Source: Dongia mobilis (GTDB lineage: Bacteria; Pseudomonadota; Alphaproteobacteria; Dongiales; Dongiaceae). Taken from it: a DNA stretch of 64,000 nucleotides. Positions within the stretch are counted from its first letter, which is position 1; each line of letters opens with the position of its first letter. The DNA is taken from positions 496,001-560,000 of the forward strand of contig NZ_SNYW01000006.1 in the NCBI RefSeq assembly GCF_004363235.1, in the 5' to 3' direction. Positions 10,670-28,804 of the stretch are shown here, one piece after another. Position numbers and translations under genes: made by a program. The notes beneath the pieces were generated by a model that searched no databases, was not told where the DNA came from, and worked only from the letters and a program-made list of their open reading frames with translations.

Positions 10670-12376
10670 TCAGGCCGCGCGCACGGTGTTAAGGAATTGA
10701 TCCACCTGCTTTCTCAACTCCTCGCCATATTGAGCCAGCGAGCCTGCGGCCCCCTGGACCTGGGTGGCGGCAGCACCCGTTTCACCGGCAGCCTGCTGGA
10801 CACTGGTGATATTCGAGGACACTTCCCTGGTGCCGTGCGATGCCTCCTCGACATTGCGGGCGATTTCGGAGGTCGCGGCACCCTGCTCCTCCACGGCGGA
10901 GGCGATGGCAGTCGAGATCTCGCTAATGCGCATGATGATGGCGCTGATGCCCTGAATGGCCGAGACGGCATCATTGGTCGCAGATTGAATGGTGCCGATC
11001 TGCGAGGAGATGTCATCCGTGGCCTTGCTGGTTTGGGTGGCCAGGCTCTTGACCTCCGACGCGACCACAGCGAAGCCCCGCCCCGCCTCGCCCGCGCGTG
11101 CCGCCTCGATGGTGGCGTTTAGGGCAAGCAGGTTGGTCTGGCTGGCGATGTCGCTGATCAGCTGGACGACGGTGCCGATCTGCTGCGCGGCTTCGGACAG
11201 GCTTTTGACGCTGCCGCTGGTGCGTTCGGCCTCGCGCACCGCCTGGCCAGCCACCGCCGAGGCTTCCGATACCTGACGCGAGATTTCGGAGACCGAACTG
11301 GAAAGTTCCTGCGCGGCGCTGGCGACGGTCTGGACGTTGGTGGCGGCCTGGTCGGATGCCGCCGCAACCGTGACCGCCTGGCGGGTGGTTTCCTCGGCGG
11401 TGGAGGACATGGTGAGGGCGGTCGCCTGCAATTCGGTGGCGGCCGAGGACACATTGCCGACAATGCCGCCGACGCTCGACTGGAAGCGATCGGCAAGCGC
11501 CAGCATGGATTGGCGTTTTTCGGCAGCGGCCCGTTCTTCGGCGGCGAGTTGTTCCCGCTTCAGTCGGTCGACCTCGATCGCGTTGTCCTTGAACACCTGG
11601 AGGGTGGCTGAGATCTCACCCACTTCATCCTTTCGCTCGGTGCCGTAGACCTTGACATTGAGGTCGCCGTTGGCGAGGTCGCGCAAGCAGCCGACGATCA
11701 GGCGGATGGGCTTGACGATGCCGAAGCGCGATATGATCCAGCCGAGCAGAATGCCGAGCACTAGGCCAAGCATCGCGATGGCACCGATGAAAAGGCTGCT
11801 TTTTTCATATTCAGCAGTGGCAGAGGCAGAGAATGTATCCACCTTGTTGCTGGTGTATTCCGAGAAAGCAACAATTGCGTCTTCCAGGGCCTTGGCGTCA
11901 TCCTGGCTGCTCAACGCTTCGGCAATAATTCGTTCCTGATGGCCCGTCACCTCAACTTGACCGCTTGCGGCTTCCGCTGCTGATAGCGTGCTGGCGAGAT
12001 TGGCCATGTATTTCTGATATGCGGCTTCGAGATCCGACAGCAAATCGATCTGACGCGCGTCAGCCGTTTCCTTGACTTCAGCGAGGCGGTCCTTGAACTG
12101 TTCTTCCAGGGTGCCGATCGTAGCCTTGGTGTTGGTAACAAATTCGGTTGTCGGGTTCGCGGCGACCTGAAACTCAGCTCGATTGAGGGCGATAACACTC
12201 TGGCGCATGCGCGCACCGGTAAAGGCCTCGCGCGAGGCCAGCTCCATTTCATTGCTGGCGTCGCTGAGGCTTTTCAACGAGGTCATGGCAGTTACCGTGA
12301 TGACCGCGCAGATTGCCAGCAGCACGCCAATAATGACGAATATCTTGGTAGAGATCTTGAAACGGGAGAGATTCAT
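10670..12376 (-). CDS. Methyl-accepting chemotaxis protein with helical-bundle sensor
   Basis: A 568-residue inner-membrane chemoreceptor. Transmembrane helix 1 spans about residues 11-32 and helix 2 about 193-215; the 160-residue periplasmic part between them is all helical ([20 protein letters not shown]), like four-helix-bundle or HBM sensors. A HAMP domain follows ([20 protein letters not shown]), then the signalling domain with the conserved hairpin tip around [20 protein letters not shown]. No C-terminal CheR-binding pentapeptide is visible. Its ligand cannot be told. The gene is alone, with the response regulator 257 bases downstream. Base composition of the N-terminal third is less GC-rich than the rest, common for sensor domains under fast change. 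Confidence 0.92.
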
Positions 12377-19855: not shown

Positions 19856-20027
19856 GTGGACACCGCGCGGAACACGGCGATAGAACTTCCATCTGCGCCG
19901 GTGGTGACGACGCCCGTCGGCAGGAGGCCAAGCGTGGAATAACCTATCCCGCCTGGACGGCTGCCCTCGCCTGAACGCCGCAGCGCGGTGCTGTACGGAA
20001 GGTTCGCCTGCGGCTATCTTGCCGGCC

Positions 20028-20669
20028 ATGAACGGGACCATTCCAGCCATCATCCTGGCCGGCGGGCGTGCGTCCCGCCTCGGCGGTGGGGACAAATGTC
20101 TGCGGGTGCTTGGCGGGCGGCCGCTGCTCGCCCATGTGATCGACGCGATCGCGCCGCAGGCCTCGCCCCTCATCCTCAACGCCAATGGCGACGCGTTGCG
20201 CTTTGCCGCCTTCAATCTGCCGGTGGTGGCCGATGACCTGCCCGACCAGCCGGGACCGCTCGCCGGCATCCTCGCCGGGCTCGATTGGGTGGCGGCACAG
20301 CGGCCCGGGACCGAATGCGCGCTCAGCGTCCCGGCCGATTGCCCTTTCCTGCCGCCCGATCTGGTGGTGCGCCTCGCCGACGTCCGGGCCCGGCACGATG
20401 CCGAGATCGCGCTCGCCGAAAGCGACGGGCGTCTGCACCCCGTGATCGGCCTCTGGTCCGTCGCCTTGCGCAGTGATCTGCGCCGCGCCCTGACCGTCGA
20501 CGGCTTGCGCAAGGTCGAACGCTTCTGTGACCGCCGTCGCAGCATCCGCGTGAACTTCGGCACGGTTGGCGGCGACCCCTTCTTCAACATCAACACGGAT
20601 GCAGACCTTGTGGCGGCGGAGCGCCGCCTCGCATCGGTCGGTCCAGCCGCAGCCGGAGTTTCATCTTGA
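20028..20669 (+). CDS. mobA: Molybdenum cofactor guanylyltransferase
   Basis: A 213-residue cytoplasmic enzyme that joins GMP to molybdopterin to make the bis-MGD precursor. The nucleotide-binding loop is AIILAGGRASRLGGGDKCL near residue 7, followed by DDLPDQPGPLAGILAGL and the metal-binding PADCPFLPPDL. The C-terminal FFNINTDADLV is also typical. The ATG at 20028 is chosen over a TTG at 20019. The stop overlaps the start of the next gene (TTGA at 20666), so they are probably co-translated although the next product has no link to Moco that I can see. Confidence 0.92.
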   Translation: MNGTIPAIILAGGRASRLGGGDKCLRVLGGRPLLAHVIDAIAPQASPLILNANGDALRFAAFNLPVVADDLPDQPGPLAGILAGLDWVAAQRPGTECALSVPADCPFLPPDLVVRLADVRARHDAEIALAESDGRLHPVIGLWSVALRSDLRRALTVDGLRKVERFCDRRRSIRVNFGTVGGDPFFNINTDADLVAAERRLASVGPAAAGVSS

Positions 20670-22009
20670 CCTGCCGTTCCCTTGTCACCCCAGGTGCCGT
20701 CCTCGGCGCCTGCACCTTCCTGTTGCCGTTGCCGGGGCTCGCAGCCGATCTCGCCGCGTCCGAAATGGACGCCATCTGCGGCGACCGCGCCGGCTGCCAG
20801 ATCATCGCGGTCAGCGACGCGGGCCGCGGCGCCACTGGCGCCGACCAGCGTGTCGCCGAGATCGTCCTTGCCCTGGACCCGGCGATGGTGGAACAGGGGG
20901 AGGTCGGCTGTCGCTCGACCGAGGCGGCGCTGGCGGGTGGCGATCCCGATGGCGGGCGCGAGTTCTGGCTGCTGGCCGGCGATGCCGCGCCGGTCCAGAT
21001 CCTGTCGCTCTGCAATGACGGCTATGGCGCATCCGGCGTTGGGGAGGATCTGGTCGAGATCGGCGACAACATCGTCACCCACAGCCAGTATGGCGGCTCC
21101 GCCTGGCGCTGGCAGGTGAGCAAGACCATCCGGCTCGACCCGCTCGCGGTGCTGCGCGAGGAAAGCTGCTCCTATCACAACGTGGCGCCGGGCAGCGGCC
21201 GCCTGACCTTGGTCGATCACACGACCCTGTCGGCGCGCGAATATGGCTGGGTGGTTGCCGGCAGGGCGGAGGATGACCTGCCGATGGGCTGTCCCGAGGC
21301 GCCGGCGGATGCCACCCTTCCTTTGCCGCCACAGCCCGCAGGTGAAACGCTGGCGGGATATGCCGTGCCGGCACCCTTCGCCGCCGATGCCAGCCAAATG
21401 CCGGAGGGGACCACGCTGGGAAGCTGCGGCCTGTCGCTGGCGACCGATGGCGCCAGGGGCTTCCTCATTCACGGTGCGGCGGCGGCGCCCGAGCGTGCCG
21501 CGGAACTTCGCGTCATCGCCGAGACCGAAAACGCGCTCCTCATTCAGGTGCGCGACCCGTTGGCCAGCGACAATGCCGGGGCGACGTCATGGGTCGGCCA
21601 GCCCCATGTCGAGATCTGGACGGCGCAGGAGGGCGCCGGCGATGGCGCCACCGAGCACGTCCAGATCGGCATCACCCTGGACGGCCTGGTGCATGAGGGC
21701 AAGGGCAAGCTGGCGCAGCCGCCGGCGGTCACGTCATGGCCGGCGCTGGACGAGTTGGGCCGCGAGGTCACGGTCCTGCGCGTGGTCTGGGCCGATCCCT
21801 ATGGCTTCCTCGCCGGGCTCGGCGTGGTCTATTCGCAAGCAGAAGGGGGCCGGCAGAAGCGCCTCGTCGCCAATGCGCCGATCCGCAAGAACACGCCGCT
21901 CTTCCTGCCCGGCGTCTGGAGCCATTATCCGGATGATTCCGGCATTCCCAATGGTGGTTGCGCTTTCACCGGCGAGCCGCCGCGACTTGACCTCGACTCC
22001 ACTCCCTGA
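20666..22009 (+). CDS. Exported protein of unknown function
   Basis: A 447-residue protein starting with TTG at 20666 (GGAG ten bases upstream) and overlapping the mobA stop. A signal peptide is present (MTCRSLVTPGAVLGAC, cut near GLAAD). The mature part has two similar-looking halves rich in Asp, Gly and beta strands, with Cys at intervals (AICGDRAGCQI, GCRSTE, LCNDG, SCSYH, GCPEAP, SCGLS). No enzyme motif is recognised. The N-terminal part reads like a periplasmic inhibitor or binding protein, but this is a guess. A CtrA-type box follows its stop by 14 bases. Confidence 0.65.
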   Translation: MTCRSLVTPGAVLGACTFLLPLPGLAADLAASEMDAICGDRAGCQIIAVSDAGRGATGADQRVAEIVLALDPAMVEQGEVGCRSTEAALAGGDPDGGREFWLLAGDAAPVQILSLCNDGYGASGVGEDLVEIGDNIVTHSQYGGSAWRWQVSKTIRLDPLAVLREESCSYHNVAPGSGRLTLVDHTTLSAREYGWVVAGRAEDDLPMGCPEAPADATLPLPPQPAGETLAGYAVPAPFAADASQMPEGTTLGSCGLSLATDGARGFLIHGAAAAPERAAELRVIAETENALLIQVRDPLASDNAGATSWVGQPHVEIWTAQEGAGDGATEHVQIGITLDGLVHEGKGKLAQPPAVTSWPALDELGREVTVLRVVWADPYGFLAGLGVVYSQAEGGRQKRLVANAPIRKNTPLFLPGVWSHYPDDSGIPNGGCAFTGEPPRLDLDSTP

Positions 22010-22023
22010 TTGGTCGCGCAATG

Positions 22024-22038
22024 TTAACGCAGATTTAA
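22024..22038. promoter_or_regulatory. CtrA-type box TTAA-N7-TTAA
   Basis: TTAACGCAGATTTAA is an exact match to the full CtrA recognition pattern. It is intergenic and lies about 100 bases before the chemoreceptor start at 22139. CtrA controls motility and chemotaxis genes in many alphaproteobacteria, so the context fits. Confidence 0.65.
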
Positions 22039-22092
22039 GCTTCTCGACGGATTAATTCCCTATTCTCGATTTCTGAAATCGCCAAATTCAGG

Positions 22093-22134
22093 TCGCCAGC
22101 TATCGATCGCCAGCTGTTGATCGCCAGGGGGAAT
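22093..22134 (+). repeat. Three 14-base tandem units in the chemoreceptor leader
   Basis: TCGCCAGCTATCGA at 22093, TCGCCAGCTGTTGA at 22107 and the diverged TCGCCAGGGGGAAT at 22121. The last copy includes the ribosome site (GGGGGA) of the gene at 22139. Confidence 0.85.
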
Positions 22135-22138
22135 GATC

Positions 22139-24304
22139 ATGTCCGTCGCAGAACAATCAAGTGGCACCGGCAAGGGGCGCATGGGCTTGCGCGCTCGCGT
22201 TTTGCTGTCCGGCATTCTGGTGATGTTTGCCGGTATCGGCGGTGCCGGCGGATTTGCCGGCTGGACCGCCTACAAGCAGGCGGAAAGCGACGCGATCGAC
22301 AATCTGCAAGCGATCGCACAGGGTGCGGCACGGCAGGTGACCGGCGCCATCCAGCCGGCCATCGACATTGCCGAAACCATCGGCCGCGCCATGGAAGGCG
22401 CCAAGCAATCCGCCATGCCGCGCACCCAGATCAAGGATCTGGTGGTGCCGGTGATCGGCGCCAAGCCGGATTATGCCGGCAGCACGGTGGCCTTCGAGCC
22501 CAACGGCTATGACGGCAACGATGCCGCCTTCGCCGGCCAGGCACCGGAGCAGGATGCCGAGGGCCGCTTCGTGCCCTATTACTACAATTCCGATTCGGGC
22601 GTCGCGATCGAGACGCTGGTGATGACGATCGACGCCGGCATCGAGGGCTGGTACTCGGTCCCGCTCGCCAACAAGCGCACCACGCTGACGCCACCCTATA
22701 TCTATCCGATCGACAACGTGCCGGTGCTGATGGCGACGGTGAGCGTGCCGATGATGGATGGCAGTACCGCCTTCGGCATCGCCACGATCGACATGAAGAT
22801 GACCAAGTTGACCGAGGAACTCGGCCGCATCCGCCCGATGGAGAGCGGCGAGGTTCTGTTGCTCAGCGACAACGGAATCTGGGCTGCCAATCCCGACGCC
22901 AACCGGCTGGGCGAGGTCATCGCCACCGAAAGCTTTGTCGAGAAGAATGCCGCCGGCGAAGATGAAACCAAGACCCGCGACTTCGCCGCCGAATTGCCGC
23001 TGAAATCGCAATACGACCAGTTCCTGGCGAGCAAGGCCACCACACCCTGGGTCAAGGTGGATGCCACCAGCGGCAATTACCTGGTCTTCATGCCGATCAG
23101 CTTTGCCGGCCCCAGCGAGATCTGGACGCTGGTCATTCGCGTGCCGGTCGCGACCGTGCTGGCCAAGGCAAACCAGCTGCTCTGGACCATCGCCGCCATC
23201 GTGGTGGCGGCGCTGCTGCTTGGTGCCATCGTCTTCGCCTGGGTCGGCAACCGCATCGCCAAGCCGATCGTCGCCCTGGCCCAGGTGACCAGCGATGTGG
23301 CCCACGGCAACTTCGCCGCCGATGTCAGGGGCACCGAACGCGGCGACGAAATCGGCGAACTGGCGCGGTCGGTTGAGGTGCTGAAGCAGGGCCAGCAGGA
23401 AAAGGTGCAGCTCGAGGCCGAGCAGAAGGCCGCCGCCGCCCGCGCCGCCGAGGAGAAGCGCGCCGCCATGCAGGCGCTGGCCGATTCCTTCGAACGTTCG
23501 GTCAAGGGCGTGGTCGACATGGTCGCCAAATCCGCCCAGCAATTGCAGGACCATGCCCGCTCGATGACCGATGTCGCGGAGGGTGCGACCCACCGGATCG
23601 GCGAGGCCTCCGGCGCCACCGACCAGGCCTCGGGCAGCGTCGATGCCGTGGCCGCGGCGGCGGAACAGCTCTCCGCCTCGATCAGCGAAATCAGCCGCCA
23701 GGTGGCGAGTTCGTCCGAGGTGGCACGTGCCGCCGTGGGCGAGATCGGCAGCGCCAACGAGACCATGAAAGGCCTGGTCGCCGTCTCGCAGCGGATCGGC
23801 GAGGTGGTGAAGCTGATCACGGCGATCGCCGAGCAGACCAATCTGTTGGCGCTCAATGCCACCATCGAGGCGGCGCGCGCCGGCGAGGCCGGTAAGGGCT
23901 TTGCCGTCGTCGCCAACGAGGTGAAGGCGCTGGCCAGCCAGACTACCAAGGCGACCGAGGGTATTTCGGTCGAGATCCAGGCGATCCAGGGCTCGACCGA
24001 CAATGTCGCCAAGGCGATGGCGACGGTGACGCGCACGATCGAGCGCATCGACGAGATCTCGAGCTCGATCGCGGCCGCGGTCGAGGAGCAATCGGCGGCG
24101 ACGCGGGAAATCTCCAGCAACGCGCAGCAGGCTTCCGGCGGCACCCAGGCGGTGCGCCAGAACGTCACCGGCGTCGAGACGGCCGTGCGCTCGGCGCGCG
24201 ACACCGCTTCCGGCGTGCTGAGTGCGGCCGAGATGATGGCCGAGCAGGCCCGCTCGCTCAATCGCGAGGTCGAATCCTTCATCAGCCAAATCCGCGCCGG
24301 GTAG
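22139..24304 (+). CDS. Methyl-accepting chemotaxis protein with periplasmic dCache sensor
   Basis: A 721-residue chemoreceptor. Transmembrane helix 1 lies near residues 20-42. A 290-residue periplasmic region follows with dCache features ([56 protein letters not shown] in part). Helix 2 lies near residues 340-362, then HAMP ([20 protein letters not shown]) and the signalling domain with the hairpin tip ([20 protein letters not shown]). The start at 22139 gives proper spacing from GGGGGA (22127-22132); the ATG at 22133 is too close. The sensor is clearly homologous to the lipoprotein coded 24 bases downstream. Bivalent dCache receptors often sense amino acids or organic acids, but no ligand motif is certain here. 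Confidence 0.93.
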
Positions 24305-24328
24305 CGTCATCCGATGCGGGGAAAGCCT

Positions 24329-25219
24329 ATGCCGGAACGCCGCACGACAGCATGGTCGGCGGCAGCATGTATCCTGCTGGCGCTGGCTCTGACGGGATGT
24401 GCCGATGACGGAAGGCGCGCGGCGCAACGCACCGAAGCCGAGGCCGTGGCGCGCCTGGCCGCTACCTTCGTGGCCGATCTGCGGGGCGATGCGGAAAGGC
24501 TCGCGGCGGAGGTCGTGACGGCACGAACTGCCGGACGGCCGCGCACCGACATCTCGGCGATCGCCGAGGCGGTGCTGCGGGATAAACCCGATCGCCTCGG
24601 GATCAGTGTGGCCTTCGAGCCCGATGGCTATGACGGCGACGACGCCGGTCACGAGAGTCAGCGCCCCGTGGGCGACAAATCGGGCAGATTTGGTGTCTAC
24701 TATTTTCGCAGCGGGGATGGATCTGTGGTGGCCGATAATCTTCAGATGACGGCCGAGGCGGGTATCGATCTCTGGTACTCGCCGGTCATTGCGACCGGAA
24801 GAAAGAGACTGGACGAGCCGTTCCGCTATCCGCTGGGTGGTGTCGAGCAGCCGATCTCGTCGATCCTTCTGCCGCTTGTCGCCGATGGAAACATTATTGG
24901 CGTAGCCACTGTCGAAACGCTGATGACGCCCGTGATTGACGAGATCGCGGCGCGCGATCAGGCCTGGCCCGGCCGGATCTGGGTGATCAGCGAGGCCGGG
25001 AACTGGATCGTTCATGCCGATGCGTCGCGGAACGGAACAACAATCGACAGCGCCACGGCTCAATCGCCAGAGGAAGTAGTCGCGCTGGAAACCTATCGCG
25101 ATCTGCTGAGCAGCGACCGGACAGTGTCCGACGGTACCGCGGGTCCCTTCGCGCTGCGTGTCACCTTCGAGGATTTGCAGCAGAGCTGGATCGTCATCAC
25201 CACGCCGATCGGAGAGTAA
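24329..25219 (+). CDS. Stand-alone dCache sensor lipoprotein, paralogue of the chemoreceptor's ligand domain
   Basis: A 296-residue protein with a lipoprotein signal peptide (lipobox L-T-G-C near residue 23, followed by A-D-D; no Asp at +2, so outer membrane by the E. coli rule). The mature part follows the chemoreceptor sensor motif by motif: VAFEPDGYDGDD against [12 protein letters not shown], a YYF/YYY motif, EAGIDLWYSPV against [11 protein letters not shown], and a GVATVET strand against GIATIDM. It ends with WIVITTPIGE, exactly where the receptor enters its second membrane helix ([13 protein letters not shown]). HAMP and signalling parts are absent. The start at 24329 is supported by GCGGGGAAAG upstream. 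Likely a duplicated sensor turned into a tethered binding protein (inference). Confidence 0.8.
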   Translation: MPERRTTAWSAAACILLALALTGCADDGRRAAQRTEAEAVARLAATFVADLRGDAERLAAEVVTARTAGRPRTDISAIAEAVLRDKPDRLGISVAFEPDGYDGDDAGHESQRPVGDKSGRFGVYYFRSGDGSVVADNLQMTAEAGIDLWYSPVIATGRKRLDEPFRYPLGGVEQPISSILLPLVADGNIIGVATVETLMTPVIDEIAARDQAWPGRIWVISEAGNWIVHADASRNGTTIDSATAQSPEEVVALETYRDLLSSDRTVSDGTAGPFALRVTFEDLQQSWIVITTPIGE

Positions 25220-25355
25220 CCGGAACCTGCCGCGAGGCGCGAAACACTCCGGTCAGGTGTCAGGGAAGAAAATCAGAAAATCCTCGACCGCCACCGCGCT
25301 CTTGGCCTAGCCTCGCTGCCGGTTCAATCGTTCTGGTTCCGGGGAGTCTCGCAAA

Positions 25356-26276
25356 ATGGGACAGGCACGCATTGCCGTCATCGGCAACGGCATCATCGGG
25401 CATGGTGTCGCCCAGGTCTTCGCCGCCGCGGGACACCCGGTGACGATGGTTGGGCGCAGTGCCGCGAGCCTCGATGGCGCGCTCGCCAATATCCGCAAGA
25501 GCCTCGCCGACTTCGTCGCCAACGACCTGCTGAGCGGATCCGAAGCGGATGCCGCGGTGGCGCGGATCAGGACCAGCACGCAACTCGCTGACGCGGCCGA
25601 TGCCGAGATGGTGATCGAGGCGGTGACCGAGGATCTGCCGCTGAAGCTGGAGATCTTCGGCGAGCTTGACCGGCTCTGTCCGCCGCAGACCATCCTCGGT
25701 TCCTCGAGCGGCCAGCCGGCGAGCGCGCTCGTCGCCAAGGTGCGCCACCGTGAACGCGTCATCGCCACCCATTTCTGGTATCCGCCCCAGCTCATCCCAC
25801 TGGTCGAAATCTGCGGCGGGCCTTTTTGCGCGCCCGACATACTCCAGCGCACCGTGGCCCTTATCCGCGGCGCCGGCAAGGAGCCGGTGGTGATCGAGAA
25901 GGAAGTGAAGGGCTTCATCGGCAACCGCCTGCAATTCGCGCTGTTGCGCGAGGCCTGGGCTTTGTGGGCCGATGGCGTCGCCTCGGCGGATGCCATCGAT
26001 GCGGTGGTTAAGGCCAGCTTCGGCCGCCGCATCGACATCACCGGTCCGATCGAATCCGCCGATATCGGCGGCCTCGCCACCATGGTGGCCTTCGGCAATT
26101 CGCTCATCCCCGATCTCTCGACCGCATCGCAGGCGCCAGAGAAGGTGGCGGCCAGGCTGCAATCGGGTGCCGCCATGCCGGGCATCTACGACTGGTCGAG
26201 GCGCGACGCCGGTGAATTGCGGGCCCAGCGCATGGCGGAATTGTTCCGCTGGCTGAAGGCCGACCGCGCGAAATAG
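25356..26276 (+). CDS. 3-hydroxyacyl-CoA dehydrogenase family protein
   Basis: A 306-residue two-domain oxidoreductase. The Rossmann loop is IGNGIIGHGVAQVFAAAGH near residue 9. The strand that normally ends in Asp for NAD binding reads MVGRS, so the acid is missing and an Arg follows, which may shift the cofactor to NADP (inference). The catalytic His is in VIATHFWYPPQLIPLVE and its Glu partner in VEICGG; the C-terminal domain has KGFIGNRLQFALLREAW. It is single-domain, without the hydratase fused in FadB. The next gene, a FAD oxidoreductase, starts 25 bases later, so both may serve one degradation pathway, perhaps of a hydroxy acid or amino acid derivative. Confidence 0.85.
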   Translation: MGQARIAVIGNGIIGHGVAQVFAAAGHPVTMVGRSAASLDGALANIRKSLADFVANDLLSGSEADAAVARIRTSTQLADAADAEMVIEAVTEDLPLKLEIFGELDRLCPPQTILGSSSGQPASALVAKVRHRERVIATHFWYPPQLIPLVEICGGPFCAPDILQRTVALIRGAGKEPVVIEKEVKGFIGNRLQFALLREAWALWADGVASADAIDAVVKASFGRRIDITGPIESADIGGLATMVAFGNSLIPDLSTASQAPEKVAARLQSGAAMPGIYDWSRRDAGELRAQRMAELFRWLKADRAK

Positions 26277-26301
26277 TCAGGCAACAGGTTTTGGCAGCAA
26301 G

Positions 26302-27576
26302 ATGAAGACAGATCCCTTCTGGTGGGAAGCCGCCCCGCGCCCTGAGATTGCCCCGCCCGACCTGCCGCTTCAGGCCGATATCGTCATCATCGGCTCGGGC
26401 TATACTGGCCTCATCGCGGCGCTCAAGCTGACCGAGGCGGGGTGTCATGTGGTGGTGCTGGAGGCGGGCCAGATCGGCAGCGGTGCCTCCAGCCGCAATT
26501 CCGGCTTCGTTGGCCGGACGCTCAAATACTCTTTCGGCGATCTGGTGAAGGCAAAGGGGCTCGATCACGCCATCGCCACCTATCGCGAGATGCAGACAGC
26601 GTTCGAGGCGGTCGCGCTCACGGTCGCGGAATACCGCATCGATTGCGGCTTCAAGCAGCACGGCCGGCTGGTGCTGGCCGAGACGGCGGCGCAATTCGAG
26701 GACCTGAAGCGCGAATACGAGCTGCGCCACAAGCATCTGGGTGCGCCTTTCGAGGTGCTGGACCGGCCGGCACTCACTGGCGAGATCGGCTCGGACCGCT
26801 ATGTCGGCGGCGTCATCCTGCCGGATCTGGGATCGATCCATCCCGGGCTCTATCACCAGGGCCTGGTTGCGGCCGCGCAGAAACTCGGTATCGCCCTGCA
26901 TCCCCTGACCCGCGCCAGCAGCATCCGGCGCGGCGCGGGCGGCTTTGCCGTGAAGACGTCGCGCGGCGACATCGCGGCGCGCGACGTCATCCTGGCGACC
27001 AATGGCTATACCGACGGTCTGGTGCCCTGGCTGCAGCGACGCCTCATTCCCTTCGATGCCTGGAAGGTGGCGACCGAGGAATTGCCGCCGGGCCTCATCG
27101 ACCAGTTGCTGCCGAAGGACCGCACCTATATCGATTCCTACATGAACATCGACGCCATCCGCCGCTCGCCGGACGGCCGTCGGATCCTCTATTGCGGCAA
27201 GACGGGCCAGCGCAGCAACCAACAGATGATGGCGCGGCGCCTGCTGGGCGAGTTGCAGGCGATCTTCCCGGCACTGGGCGATGTCGAACTGACGCATTCC
27301 TGGACCGGTCGCTGCGCCGCCAGCTTCGACCTGCTGCCGCATATCGGCACCCATGAGGGCATGCATTACGCCGTCGGCTATTGCTTCGCCGGCCTGCCGA
27401 TGGGCTCGCATTTCGGCCGCCTGCTGGCGCAGCGCATCCTGGCGCCGGGGACGGCGCCATCGGTCTTTGCCGATCAGCCCTTCCCGACCGTGCCGCTTTA
27501 CGGCGGCAACAACTGGTTCGTGCCCTGGATGATGCGCTGGTACGATTTCAAGGAAGGCAAGAAGCACGCCGCCTGA
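26302..27576 (+). CDS. FAD-dependent amine/amino acid oxidoreductase (DAO family)
   Basis: A 424-residue flavoprotein. The dinucleotide fold is at residues 27-55 (IVIIGSGYTGLIAALKLTEAG, ending VVLEAG, in part), followed by the SGASSRNSGFVG loop typical of the PuuB/OrdL-like oxidases that act on gamma-glutamyl-putrescine and other amines. The C-terminal FAD contact is YAVGYCFAGLPMGSHFGRLLA. The extra N-terminus DPFWWEAAPRP is also seen in this subfamily. It is downstream of the hydroxyacyl-CoA dehydrogenase-like gene and convergent with the acyltransferase. Substrate is not certain. Confidence 0.85.
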   Translation: MKTDPFWWEAAPRPEIAPPDLPLQADIVIIGSGYTGLIAALKLTEAGCHVVVLEAGQIGSGASSRNSGFVGRTLKYSFGDLVKAKGLDHAIATYREMQTAFEAVALTVAEYRIDCGFKQHGRLVLAETAAQFEDLKREYELRHKHLGAPFEVLDRPALTGEIGSDRYVGGVILPDLGSIHPGLYHQGLVAAAQKLGIALHPLTRASSIRRGAGGFAVKTSRGDIAARDVILATNGYTDGLVPWLQRRLIPFDAWKVATEELPPGLIDQLLPKDRTYIDSYMNIDAIRRSPDGRRILYCGKTGQRSNQQMMARRLLGELQAIFPALGDVELTHSWTGRCAASFDLLPHIGTHEGMHYAVGYCFAGLPMGSHFGRLLAQRILAPGTAPSVFADQPFPTVPLYGGNNWFVPWMMRWYDFKEGKKHAA

Positions 27577-27602
27577 GGCGGCCTTGCGTCAGCAGATGGA
27601 AG

Positions 27603-28466
27603 TCAGGCGATGATGCCGTGGAAGCCGGGCCGCGAGGCCGGGTTGCCGAGCCATTCGGTGCGGGCGCGGAGATGCCGGCTCAGTTCATGCGGGTCGCGCA
27701 TGGCGGCAAGGCCCTCATAGGGCAGTACATCGCCGATGGTGACGCGGAACTCGCCGCCGATCTTGTTGGCGATCTCATGCACCAGGAAGGCGAGCCTGGC
27801 CGTCATGCTGATATGGCTGGCGATCTGGAAGAGGCGGCTGTTCTGGCCGTGGAAATACATCGGCACAACATTGGCCTGGGCGGCATGGATCAGGCGCGCG
27901 GTGAACGGTTTCCAGTCGAAATCCACGGCGCGCCTGGCAAACGGTGTGGGCGTGGTCGCGACGGCTCCGGCCGGGAACACGACCAGGCAACCGCCTGCCA
28001 TGATGTGTTCGCGGGCGATGGCGCGCGATTGCAGCGTCGTCGCCCTGGCCGCCGGGGTGGGATCGAAATCGACCGGCAGGATGAAGCGCTGGATCTCGGC
28101 ATCGGGCGGATAGAGGCGGGCATGGGTCAGCACCTTGAAGTCACCGCGCACACGGTTGGCGAGGTGCCCGATCAGGATGCCGTCGACCAGGCCGAAGGGG
28201 TGGTTGGCGACGATGACCAGCGGCCCGGATGCCGGCAGGCGGGCGAGTTTCTGGGAATCGTAGTCGAGGCTGAGTTCGAGGAGGCGCATCGCCGCCTCCC
28301 AGAAATCGACCGATCCCTTCATCTCGGCCTCGTAGAGGTCGTAGAGCCGCCGCAGACGGGTCTGGCCGGTCAGGGTCTCGATGACCCGGATGGCGCAGCG
28401 CGACAGGCGCGTGTCGGCAGGGCTGGCATAGGAGAGGTCGATCGTGTCATCAGCGGTGGTAGCCAT
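27603..28466 (-). CDS. PlsC-like lysophospholipid acyltransferase family protein
   Basis: A 287-residue acyltransferase. The catalytic His-Asp motif appears as NHPFGLVDG (H-x4-D pattern with one shift), followed by PPDAEIQRFILPVDF and the substrate-binding FPAGAVATT. This form resembles the hemolysin-like/OlsA-type branch, which acylates lysolipids or ornithine lipid precursors, more than classic PlsC. The ATG at 28466 is preceded by CAGGAACC; an open frame extends to 28499 without better support. A parS-like site lies 61 bases upstream. Membrane-associated but no clear transmembrane helix. Confidence 0.8.
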   Translation of the reverse strand: MATTADDTIDLSYASPADTRLSRCAIRVIETLTGQTRLRRLYDLYEAEMKGSVDFWEAAMRLLELSLDYDSQKLARLPASGPLVIVANHPFGLVDGILIGHLANRVRGDFKVLTHARLYPPDAEIQRFILPVDFDPTPAARATTLQSRAIAREHIMAGGCLVVFPAGAVATTPTPFARRAVDFDWKPFTARLIHAAQANVVPMYFHGQNSRLFQIASHISMTARLAFLVHEIANKIGGEFRVTIGDVLPYEGLAAMRDPHELSRHLRARTEWLGNPASRPGFHGIIA

Positions 28467-28804
28467 GGTTCCTGGATAGGCCGCCAAGGTTGCACGCACA
28501 TCTCAACAGGATGACATTTATGTTGTTGTTTCACGTGAAATAAATAATTACGCATAAAATCAATTGATTGAATCCGTAAATTGTAGCGGGGGAACGCCGG
28601 CGGAACCTTTCGCGATCATGCAGGGCGAATGTCCTTGTGCCTCGAAACTGCGTAAATACAATCACTTGATGCCACACTCTTAAGATATTACTCTCGTTCG
28701 CTGCTTGTGCCGGTTTGTACTCATTTCGAGTCGCCGCCGAGTCGCACCCGAGTCGCGCTTTGATATCGCTTGCTTTTCTGCCCCTGGCGGCCAAGGTTTC
28801 CGGA
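28467..28804. other. 338-base AT-rich intergenic region with palindromes
   Basis: The centre (28510-28700) is clearly AT-rich compared with the flanking genes. It contains the parS-like site and a second 12-bp palindrome, AATCAATTGATT, at 28558-28569. It should also hold divergent promoters for the acyltransferase and the aminotransferase. No credible gene is present. Confidence 0.6.
28527..28542. other. parS-like ParB binding site
   Basis: TGTTTCACGTGAAATA matches the bacterial parS consensus TGTTTCACGTGAAACA at 15 of 16 bases, with a perfect 12-bp core palindrome TTTCACGTGAAA. It is intergenic. Such sites are bound by ParB and cluster near the replication origin, so this part of the chromosome may be origin-proximal. 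Confidence 0.8.

Follow-up and report, generated by a model that had tools for sequence, protein, structure and literature searches.

A predicted lipoprotein carrying a dCache sensor alone, encoded beside its paralogous chemoreceptor in Dongia

How does the sensor of a bacterial chemoreceptor come to be encoded a second time, alone and directly behind the receptor gene, and what might the second product do? The question is raised by a stretch of 64,000 nucleotides from Dongia mobilis (RefSeq assembly GCF_004363235.1, contig NZ_SNYW01000006.1, positions 496,001 to 560,000 of the forward strand), here called the window, in which the gene of a methyl-accepting chemotaxis protein (MCP) is followed by that of a predicted lipoprotein (Table 1). 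The sequence bears directly on homology, predicted fold, domain loss, lipobox, adjacency and recurrence. On these grounds the lipoprotein appears to be a paralogue of the receptor that has no signalling half and arose within Dongia.

The receptor has the make-up of an MCP: two membrane helices (hydropathy peaks at residues 23 and 353), a HAMP domain (E 2e-9) and an MCP signalling domain (PF00015, E 5e-29), with a sensor that matches PF22673 (E 2e-12). Neither HAMP nor the MCP signalling domain was found in the lipoprotein by Pfam at E up to 1, and its open reading frame (ORF) closes after the sensor, which rules it out as an MCP in its own right. It had been predicted to stop where the receptor would enter its second membrane helix, and this is so: the C-terminus ...SWIVITTPIGE extends three residues beyond the Pro that aligns with the receptor's ...VP, short of the second helix. 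At the other end, where a lipobox was said to replace the first helix, we find a signal peptide ending in LALTGC. The N-terminus, MPERRTTAWSAAACILLALALTGC, and that of the lipoprotein in a second genome described below (G001), MLTAGRLAAVLFAAIIAGC, both carry a lipobox as judged by pattern and hydropathy alone, and the pattern supports lipid anchoring of the window protein. A second hydrophobic stretch, at residue 176 (1.56), falls within the folded domain. The start at 24329 is favoured over 24314 because the Shine–Dalgarno-like GGGGAAAG stands directly before it. The spacing of 24 bases between the receptor stop and this start suggests that the two genes share one transcript. Scans of 21950–25420 found no promoter (0.4 expected from shuffles) and one terminator (2.3 expected), and an Rfam scan of 21000–26500 gave zero matches.

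Likeness between the two sensors had been proposed motif by motif, and the named motifs (VAFEPxGYDGxD, YYF/YYY, AGIxxWYS and GxAT) are indeed common to both. The periplasmic parts share 74 of 234 residues by BLASTP (119 bits, E 7e-36 for this single comparison), so the likeness is not due to chance. Of the lipoprotein's paralogues in the whole genome (4.19 Mb in 14 contigs), the adjacent receptor scores best (E 4e-34); three frames of 700, 710 and 780 residues come next (E 5e-21 to 1e-10), and two further matches, at E 0.02 and E 0.16, are weak. AlphaFold2, supplied with alignments of the window proteins and named relatives, gave confident dCache models for both, with pLDDT 86.5 and pTM 0.85 for the lipoprotein (model residues 117–122 under 50) and 87.8 and 0.84 for the receptor. 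Judged through the solved structures that the two models match in common, the sensor regions also agree in fold. Foldseek places MkcA (9heh) first for both (E 2e-20 for the lipoprotein), and PctD, PacA, McpX and TlpQ come next, in an order that differs between the models and with other dCache sensors interspersed. Sequence searches recovered the same set, headed by 9heh when the lipoprotein was the query and by 7psg (PacA) when it was the receptor; the best solved matches of the receptor sensor are MkcA 9heh, PctD 7prq and PacA 7psg. An ABC-type solute-binding protein was considered for the lipoprotein and rejected, since the fold is dCache, no solute-binding family matched, and the seven proteins scanned across 20019–28499, one of which matched nothing, include no transporter family. 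The Pfam matches of the lipoprotein itself stay below threshold (PF22673, 19.6 bits against 27; dCache_1, 13.1 against 45), so that a scan at the cut-offs would miss it.

The pairing is found beyond this genome. Seven genomes were compared, G000 (that of the window) to G006, the assignment of the genus as Dongia resting on two of them, G003 (NZ_CAKZGO010000022, uncultured Dongia sp.) and G004 (NZ_CAMDRA010000011, Dongia mobilis); G001 is JACPDN010000002 and G002 is JAEUKV010000279. In six of the seven, the receptor and then a gene for a 3-hydroxyacyl-CoA dehydrogenase-like enzyme occur in the same order, while G005 lacks both a close copy of the receptor and, at E 1e-60, such an enzyme gene. 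Sensor-only proteins, or solos, occur in three of the seven genomes, that is, in three of the six with the receptor, and each of the three lies beside it. In G001 a lipoprotein of 305 residues (lipobox IAGC) stands between the same two genes, 80 bases past the receptor; it is 28% identical to that of the window. The solo of G004 lies upstream of the receptor and ends in a membrane helix and a short tail with no HAMP domain, its first helix being in another frame. In G006, the stretches that flank the solo in G001 (~83% identical each) abut, leaving ~1,020 bases extra in G001; given the tree described below, this state is most simply a recent and precise loss.

Two further observations concern these loci. 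The G004 receptor (L036 4920–7072, minus strand) is interrupted once by a frameshift and once by an in-frame stop towards the end, and the neighbouring ORFs are open; the breaks may reflect an assembly error or decay of the pair there. Between the receptor and lipoprotein genes of G001 (L035 6617–6698) lies a perfect inverted repeat of 11 base pairs with a 10-base loop and no T-run after it. The scan of this locus found two promoter-like sites (0.4 expected) and no terminators.

A tree was calculated from 45 sensors, a set from which the weak L006 and L007, repeats from the same place, stretches shorter than 220 residues and near copies with 50 consecutive residues in common (such as L084) were left out. 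In this tree the solos come out as a single clade (support 99/94) whose sister is the set of six Dongia receptors; solos, Dongia receptors and the receptor of G013 (JAJYUT010000004, another genus of the family) make up a group with support 99/97. The tree program warns that long branches meet. When each solo was placed with the other two omitted, it fell inside or sister to the receptor group (88/73 for G000, 47/97 for G001, 98/94 for G004). Long-branch attraction was considered as the cause of the placement and set aside on these trees, in which the support is weak for two. A recent duplication, with the lipoprotein as sister to its own receptor, is rejected (p-AU 0.007). Grouping the lipoprotein with the receptors of G000 and G002 is not rejected (p 0.13), nor is grouping the G004 solo with a piece of its own receptor (p 0.08). 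The lipoprotein is the sensor domain of the receptor alone, encoded next to it, but it does not look like a recent copy: in the tree the two lines part at the base of the Dongia receptors. Most simply, an amine-type chemoreceptor gene was duplicated once, long ago. The copy would then have shed HAMP and the signalling domains, acquired a lipoprotein signal in place of the first membrane helix and given up the second, with repeated loss of the gene thereafter. The surviving forms make a stepwise series, from that of G004, with the first helix (in another frame) and the second and no HAMP, to the lipoproteins of G000 and G001.

Which ligand might such a sensor bind? According to the accessible text of a preprint (PMC10104139), PacA, PctD and McpX define the amine-binding type dCache_1AM, and its motif is reported in kinases, chemoreceptors, second-messenger receptors and Ser/Thr phosphatases. 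Pocket positions were mapped by the alignment of the receptor with PctD, and the mapping is supported by the ten residues named in the paper, which all land on the expected letters with an unvarying shift of 11. The alignments used here (A4 and A5) hold 11 chosen sequences and leave aside the G006 receptor, the broken G004 receptor and more distant paralogues. The ten tracked positions are R D Y W Y Y Y M T D in all eight receptors of A5, that of the window among them. Set against the amine motif, R, both D, M and the aromatics agree; Tyr stands at the W155 position, Trp at F188 and Thr at S217. The receptor residues probably fit the amine type and mark the receptor as a putative amine sensor. 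The corresponding residues are R D Y W Y F Y I S E in the window lipoprotein, R D Y W Y Y Y L S D in the solo of G004 and R G Y W Y G Y T T D in the lipoprotein of G001, where the alignment is less sure. In all three solos the positions of R103, W155, F188, Y189 and Y206 are as in the receptors, the last four being aromatic.

We propose, with a confidence somewhat short of even, that the lipoprotein is a non-signalling amine binder that alters the free ligand at the adjacent receptor, or presents ligand to it. Exported and tethered by its lipid in the periplasm, the sensor would bind an amine and serve as a sponge or competitor for the ligand of the receptor, or hand the ligand on; each step in this, from export through binding to an effect on the receptor, is conjectural here. 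Speaking for the proposal are the homology and common fold, the amine-type positions, the recurrence at one locus, the single clade of the solos, the stepwise series of forms, the frames kept open and the tight spacing of the two genes. Several observations weigh against it. In the window lipoprotein, Glu replaces the ligand-contacting Asp (D235 of PctD), so we count it as related to dCache_1AM and not as a member, and in the G001 lipoprotein the D133 position is Gly and the M215 position Thr. In the accessible text of PMC10104139, changing D235 of PctD to Ala lowers the affinity for choline 162-fold (Glu at this place is absent from the mutant table), and two domains with a single mismatch to the motif bound none of the amines tested. 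Half of the receptor-bearing Dongia genomes (three of six) have no solo, among them G006, although its receptor hardly differs from the one in G001. The end branches of the solos measure 1.13, 1.82 and 2.35, against 0.017–0.6 for the seven receptors of the group, and the GC content at third codon positions is 0.73 in the lipoprotein against 0.86 in the receptor (0.64 against 0.74 in G001). Nor do shuffles support preferential conservation of the binding module. The lipoprotein is identical to the receptor at 50 of 130 residues in the distal module and 25 of 94 in the proximal, a difference reached in 433 of 10,000 shuffles; the difference is larger in a plain receptor that is only distantly related (136 of 10,000), and the G001 solo shows none (7109 of 10,000). 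There is also the matter of the membrane. By the sorting rule of E. coli, Ala after the lipobox Cys directs a lipoprotein to the outer membrane. Both lipoproteins, of the window and of G001, have Ala there, which would put them in the outer membrane, away from that of the receptor. A site in the outer membrane would suit a sponge or shuttle in the periplasm more than it would a direct complex.

The changes in the pocket, the patchy distribution and the rapid evolution are likewise compatible with a new ligand or with slow decay. Were the lipoprotein a relic, its gene would be a receptor duplicate, stripped of the signalling half, that drifts towards loss while its product is still made without a selected role. 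The long solo branches, the missing solos with the precise absence in G006, the lower third-position GC and the change of one tracked pocket Asp all point that way, as do the out-of-frame first helix of the G004 solo and the frameshift and stop in the receptor beside it, and the three solos keep 34, 29 and 40 of the 61 columns that are invariant in the receptors, which argues against selective retention. Yet the two lipoproteins, strongly diverged as they are, are both fully open and keep the lipobox and the aromatic cage. In 1000 runs of neutral decay simulated on the receptor sensor (substitutions only, uniform sites, assumed base composition), 33 remained stop-free at 60% identity, 15 at 45% and 7 at 32%, and this with no insertions or deletions. 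Open frames in proteins so diverged, set beside seven stop-free decays in 1000, are counted for selective retention, and the gain of a lipobox would be unexpected in a relic. On balance we consider a relic unlikely.

A new specificity would account for the pocket changes (D to E, M to I, Y to F) and the fast divergence. The lipoprotein would then bind a different amine or small molecule for another partner, such as an uptake system, an enzyme or another receptor, and its position would mark its birthplace only. Two enzymes encoded nearby, whose weak family matches include amine and carnitine substrates, all under cut-off, would suit this. Set against it, the seven proteins scanned in the neighbourhood include no transporter family, and a solo stands beside the receptor in three of three genomes, which a free-standing function would not need; we think a new specificity distinctly unlikely. 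As a hetero-oligomer partner, the lipoprotein would instead pair with the periplasmic domain of the receptor through the N-terminal helix and damp or retune it. dCache receptors dimerise through this helix, and the long helix is retained in the lipoprotein model (residues 2–43). But the helix is the least conserved part, with 7 of 43 residues identical to the receptor, and a lipid that anchors the protein in the other membrane would stand in the way of pairing; such a partnership seems improbable.

Solos of this kind were sought outside the genus as well. A profile of the three solos, with every first-look candidate scored, matched 14 of 17 genomes of the family at E 1e-8. Apart from the solos themselves and two pieces of the broken G004 receptor, the frames among the matches listed were of 560–791 residues, and the other 10 family genomes yielded no sensor-only protein in this search. 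Two of nine named loci, taken with up to 7 kb on each side, hold a solo (the G001 and G004 records). Among 385 genomes of the class there were 60 matches at E 1e-15, and the frames shorter than 590 residues were just the two sampled Dongia solos and one match at a contig end. In 398 genomes of the phylum, the frames below 500 residues other than the Dongia pair were six of 406–439 residues, and no further solo was identified; both searches scored at most six first-look candidates per genome, so that misses are possible. The frames of G444, G448, G521:C4 and G711 (406–439 residues) were rejected, as they are seemingly soluble and carry a piece of the MCP signalling domain, and G521:C49 and C42 (424 and 433 residues), which begin 385 and 454 bases from a contig end, were left out of this check. 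A search of 115 class genomes with PF22673 gave 44 matches in frames of at least 502 residues and no solo, a weak control given that two of the three known solos fall under the cut-off. With PF02743, 117 of 150 phylum genomes had a match, and among the matches listed three frames were shorter than 400 residues: one cut by a contig end, one apparently a broken receptor and one near a contig start. G440:C8 (290 residues) and G271:C25 (338) were rejected as further solos because their frames run off contig ends. G517:C1 (385) continues past the sensor into a region that is HAMP-like by eye, followed by a separate ORF for the signalling domain, and reads as a broken receptor. Left out of this check were G440:C1 (339 residues, 85 bases from a contig start), two frames of 472 residues and one of 488. 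A first contig scan with the lipoprotein as query gave 73 pattern-matching stretches, none encoding a relative.

A different arrangement came to light in four proteins of 380–389 residues (L097 4607–5764, plus; L098 4617–5774, plus; L099 4675–5844, minus; L100 4157–5299, plus). They carry a fragment of the MCP signalling domain at the N-terminal end and a dCache_1AM-like domain at the C-terminal end, with no signal peptide or membrane helix by eye, and are seemingly soluble chemoreceptors with a reversed domain order.

The genes around the pair are included in Table 1. The upstream protein of 447 residues has zero Pfam or NCBIfam matches; homologues that are 52–53% identical lie upstream of the receptor in G001, G003, G004 and G006. 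Downstream, the dehydrogenase-like gene, present in six of the seven Dongia genomes, is also found in G015, and every NCBIfam match of its product is under cut-off. This enzyme and the oxidoreductase-like one (25356–27576) are syntenic with the receptor. Neither comes near any NCBIfam cut-off, the models for carnitine 3-dehydrogenase and L-pipecolate oxidase being among their low-scoring matches; the two enzymes are a possible clue to the ligand of the receptor. A second chemoreceptor-like ORF in the window (10670–12376, minus strand) is 41–47% identical, over 347–478 residues of the signalling part, to orthologues and relatives of the receptor.

Table 1 Coordinates of the receptor–lipoprotein locus and its neighbours in the window
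Feature	Position	Strand	Basis or remark
447-residue protein gene upstream of receptor, synteny marker	20666–22009	+	signal peptide by eye
Methyl-accepting chemotaxis protein gene	22139–24304	+	longest ORF from 22133; first membrane helix, dCache sensor, second membrane helix, HAMP, MCP signalling domain
Receptor periplasmic dCache sensor, putative amine (dCache_1AM) type	22253–23188	+	model, solved matches, motif positions
Sensor-only predicted lipoprotein gene, 296 residues	24329–25219	+	longest ORF from 24314
Predicted lipoprotein signal peptide and lipobox ...LALTGC	24329–24400	+	Cys codon 24398–24400, then A-D-D; hydropathy peak residue 7
Lipoprotein dCache domain, amine pocket partly altered	24401–25216	+	model pLDDT 86.5; top solved structure 9heh
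3-Hydroxyacyl-CoA dehydrogenase-like enzyme gene, downstream synteny marker	25356–26276	+	PF02737 1e-51
FAD-dependent amine/amino-acid oxidoreductase-like enzyme gene	26302–27576	+	L-pipecolate oxidase model 180.6 bits, cut-off 600; syntenic

Comparison with known systems shows what is familiar here and what is not. Periplasmic binding proteins feed chemoreceptors, as maltose-binding protein does with Tar. The likeness, if the lipoprotein acts as a co-receptor, lies in a separate periplasmic ligand binder ahead of the receptor; the fold of maltose-binding protein differs, however, and is common to transporters, of which the proteins scanned at the window locus include none. The soluble decoy receptors of animals are likewise signalling-free copies of a receptor's binding domain, but their function has been measured, whereas for the lipoprotein it is a mere possibility. 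BasB, of Halobacterium and Haloferax, is lipid-anchored. It is encoded as a pair with its chemotaxis transducer BasT and, as described in the accessible text of PMC2841640, belongs to the ABC substrate-binding superfamily, unlike the sensor of its receptor in fold, whereas the lipoprotein of the window is a putative copy of the receptor's own sensor. Closest in fold are the dCache_1AM receptors PacA (7psg), PctD (7prq) and McpX (6d8v), which share that of the window pair, as do the related MkcA (9heh), TlpQ (6fu4) and McpU (6f9g), all among the best solved matches. In the dCache_1AM receptors the sensor is part of the receptor, whereas the lipoprotein has no output domain, is predicted to be lipid-anchored and has Glu for the ligand Asp.

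A literature search, covering titles and the openings of abstracts and leaving subscription papers mostly uncovered, found no sensor-only dCache lipoprotein beside a chemoreceptor, and the word lipoprotein was not found in the accessible text of a paper on the Cache superfamily (PMC4822843); as evidence of novelty this is weak. That the lipid-anchored sensor copy binds amines and retunes its parent receptor as a sponge, decoy or co-receptor, and is the first case in which such a system derives from the sensor of the receptor itself instead of a binding protein of transport, with a half-way form still found in a sister species, is a combination that we hold to be rather doubtful. Explanations of bacterial sensing usually invoke receptors on their own, or receptors together with the binding proteins of transport. 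If the proposal is true, sensitivity would have a third means of being set, through a free sensor copy made next to the receptor. The Dongia series suggests a stepwise route by which a receptor may become a membrane sensor with no output and then a lipoprotein, a case that Pfam cut-offs miss.

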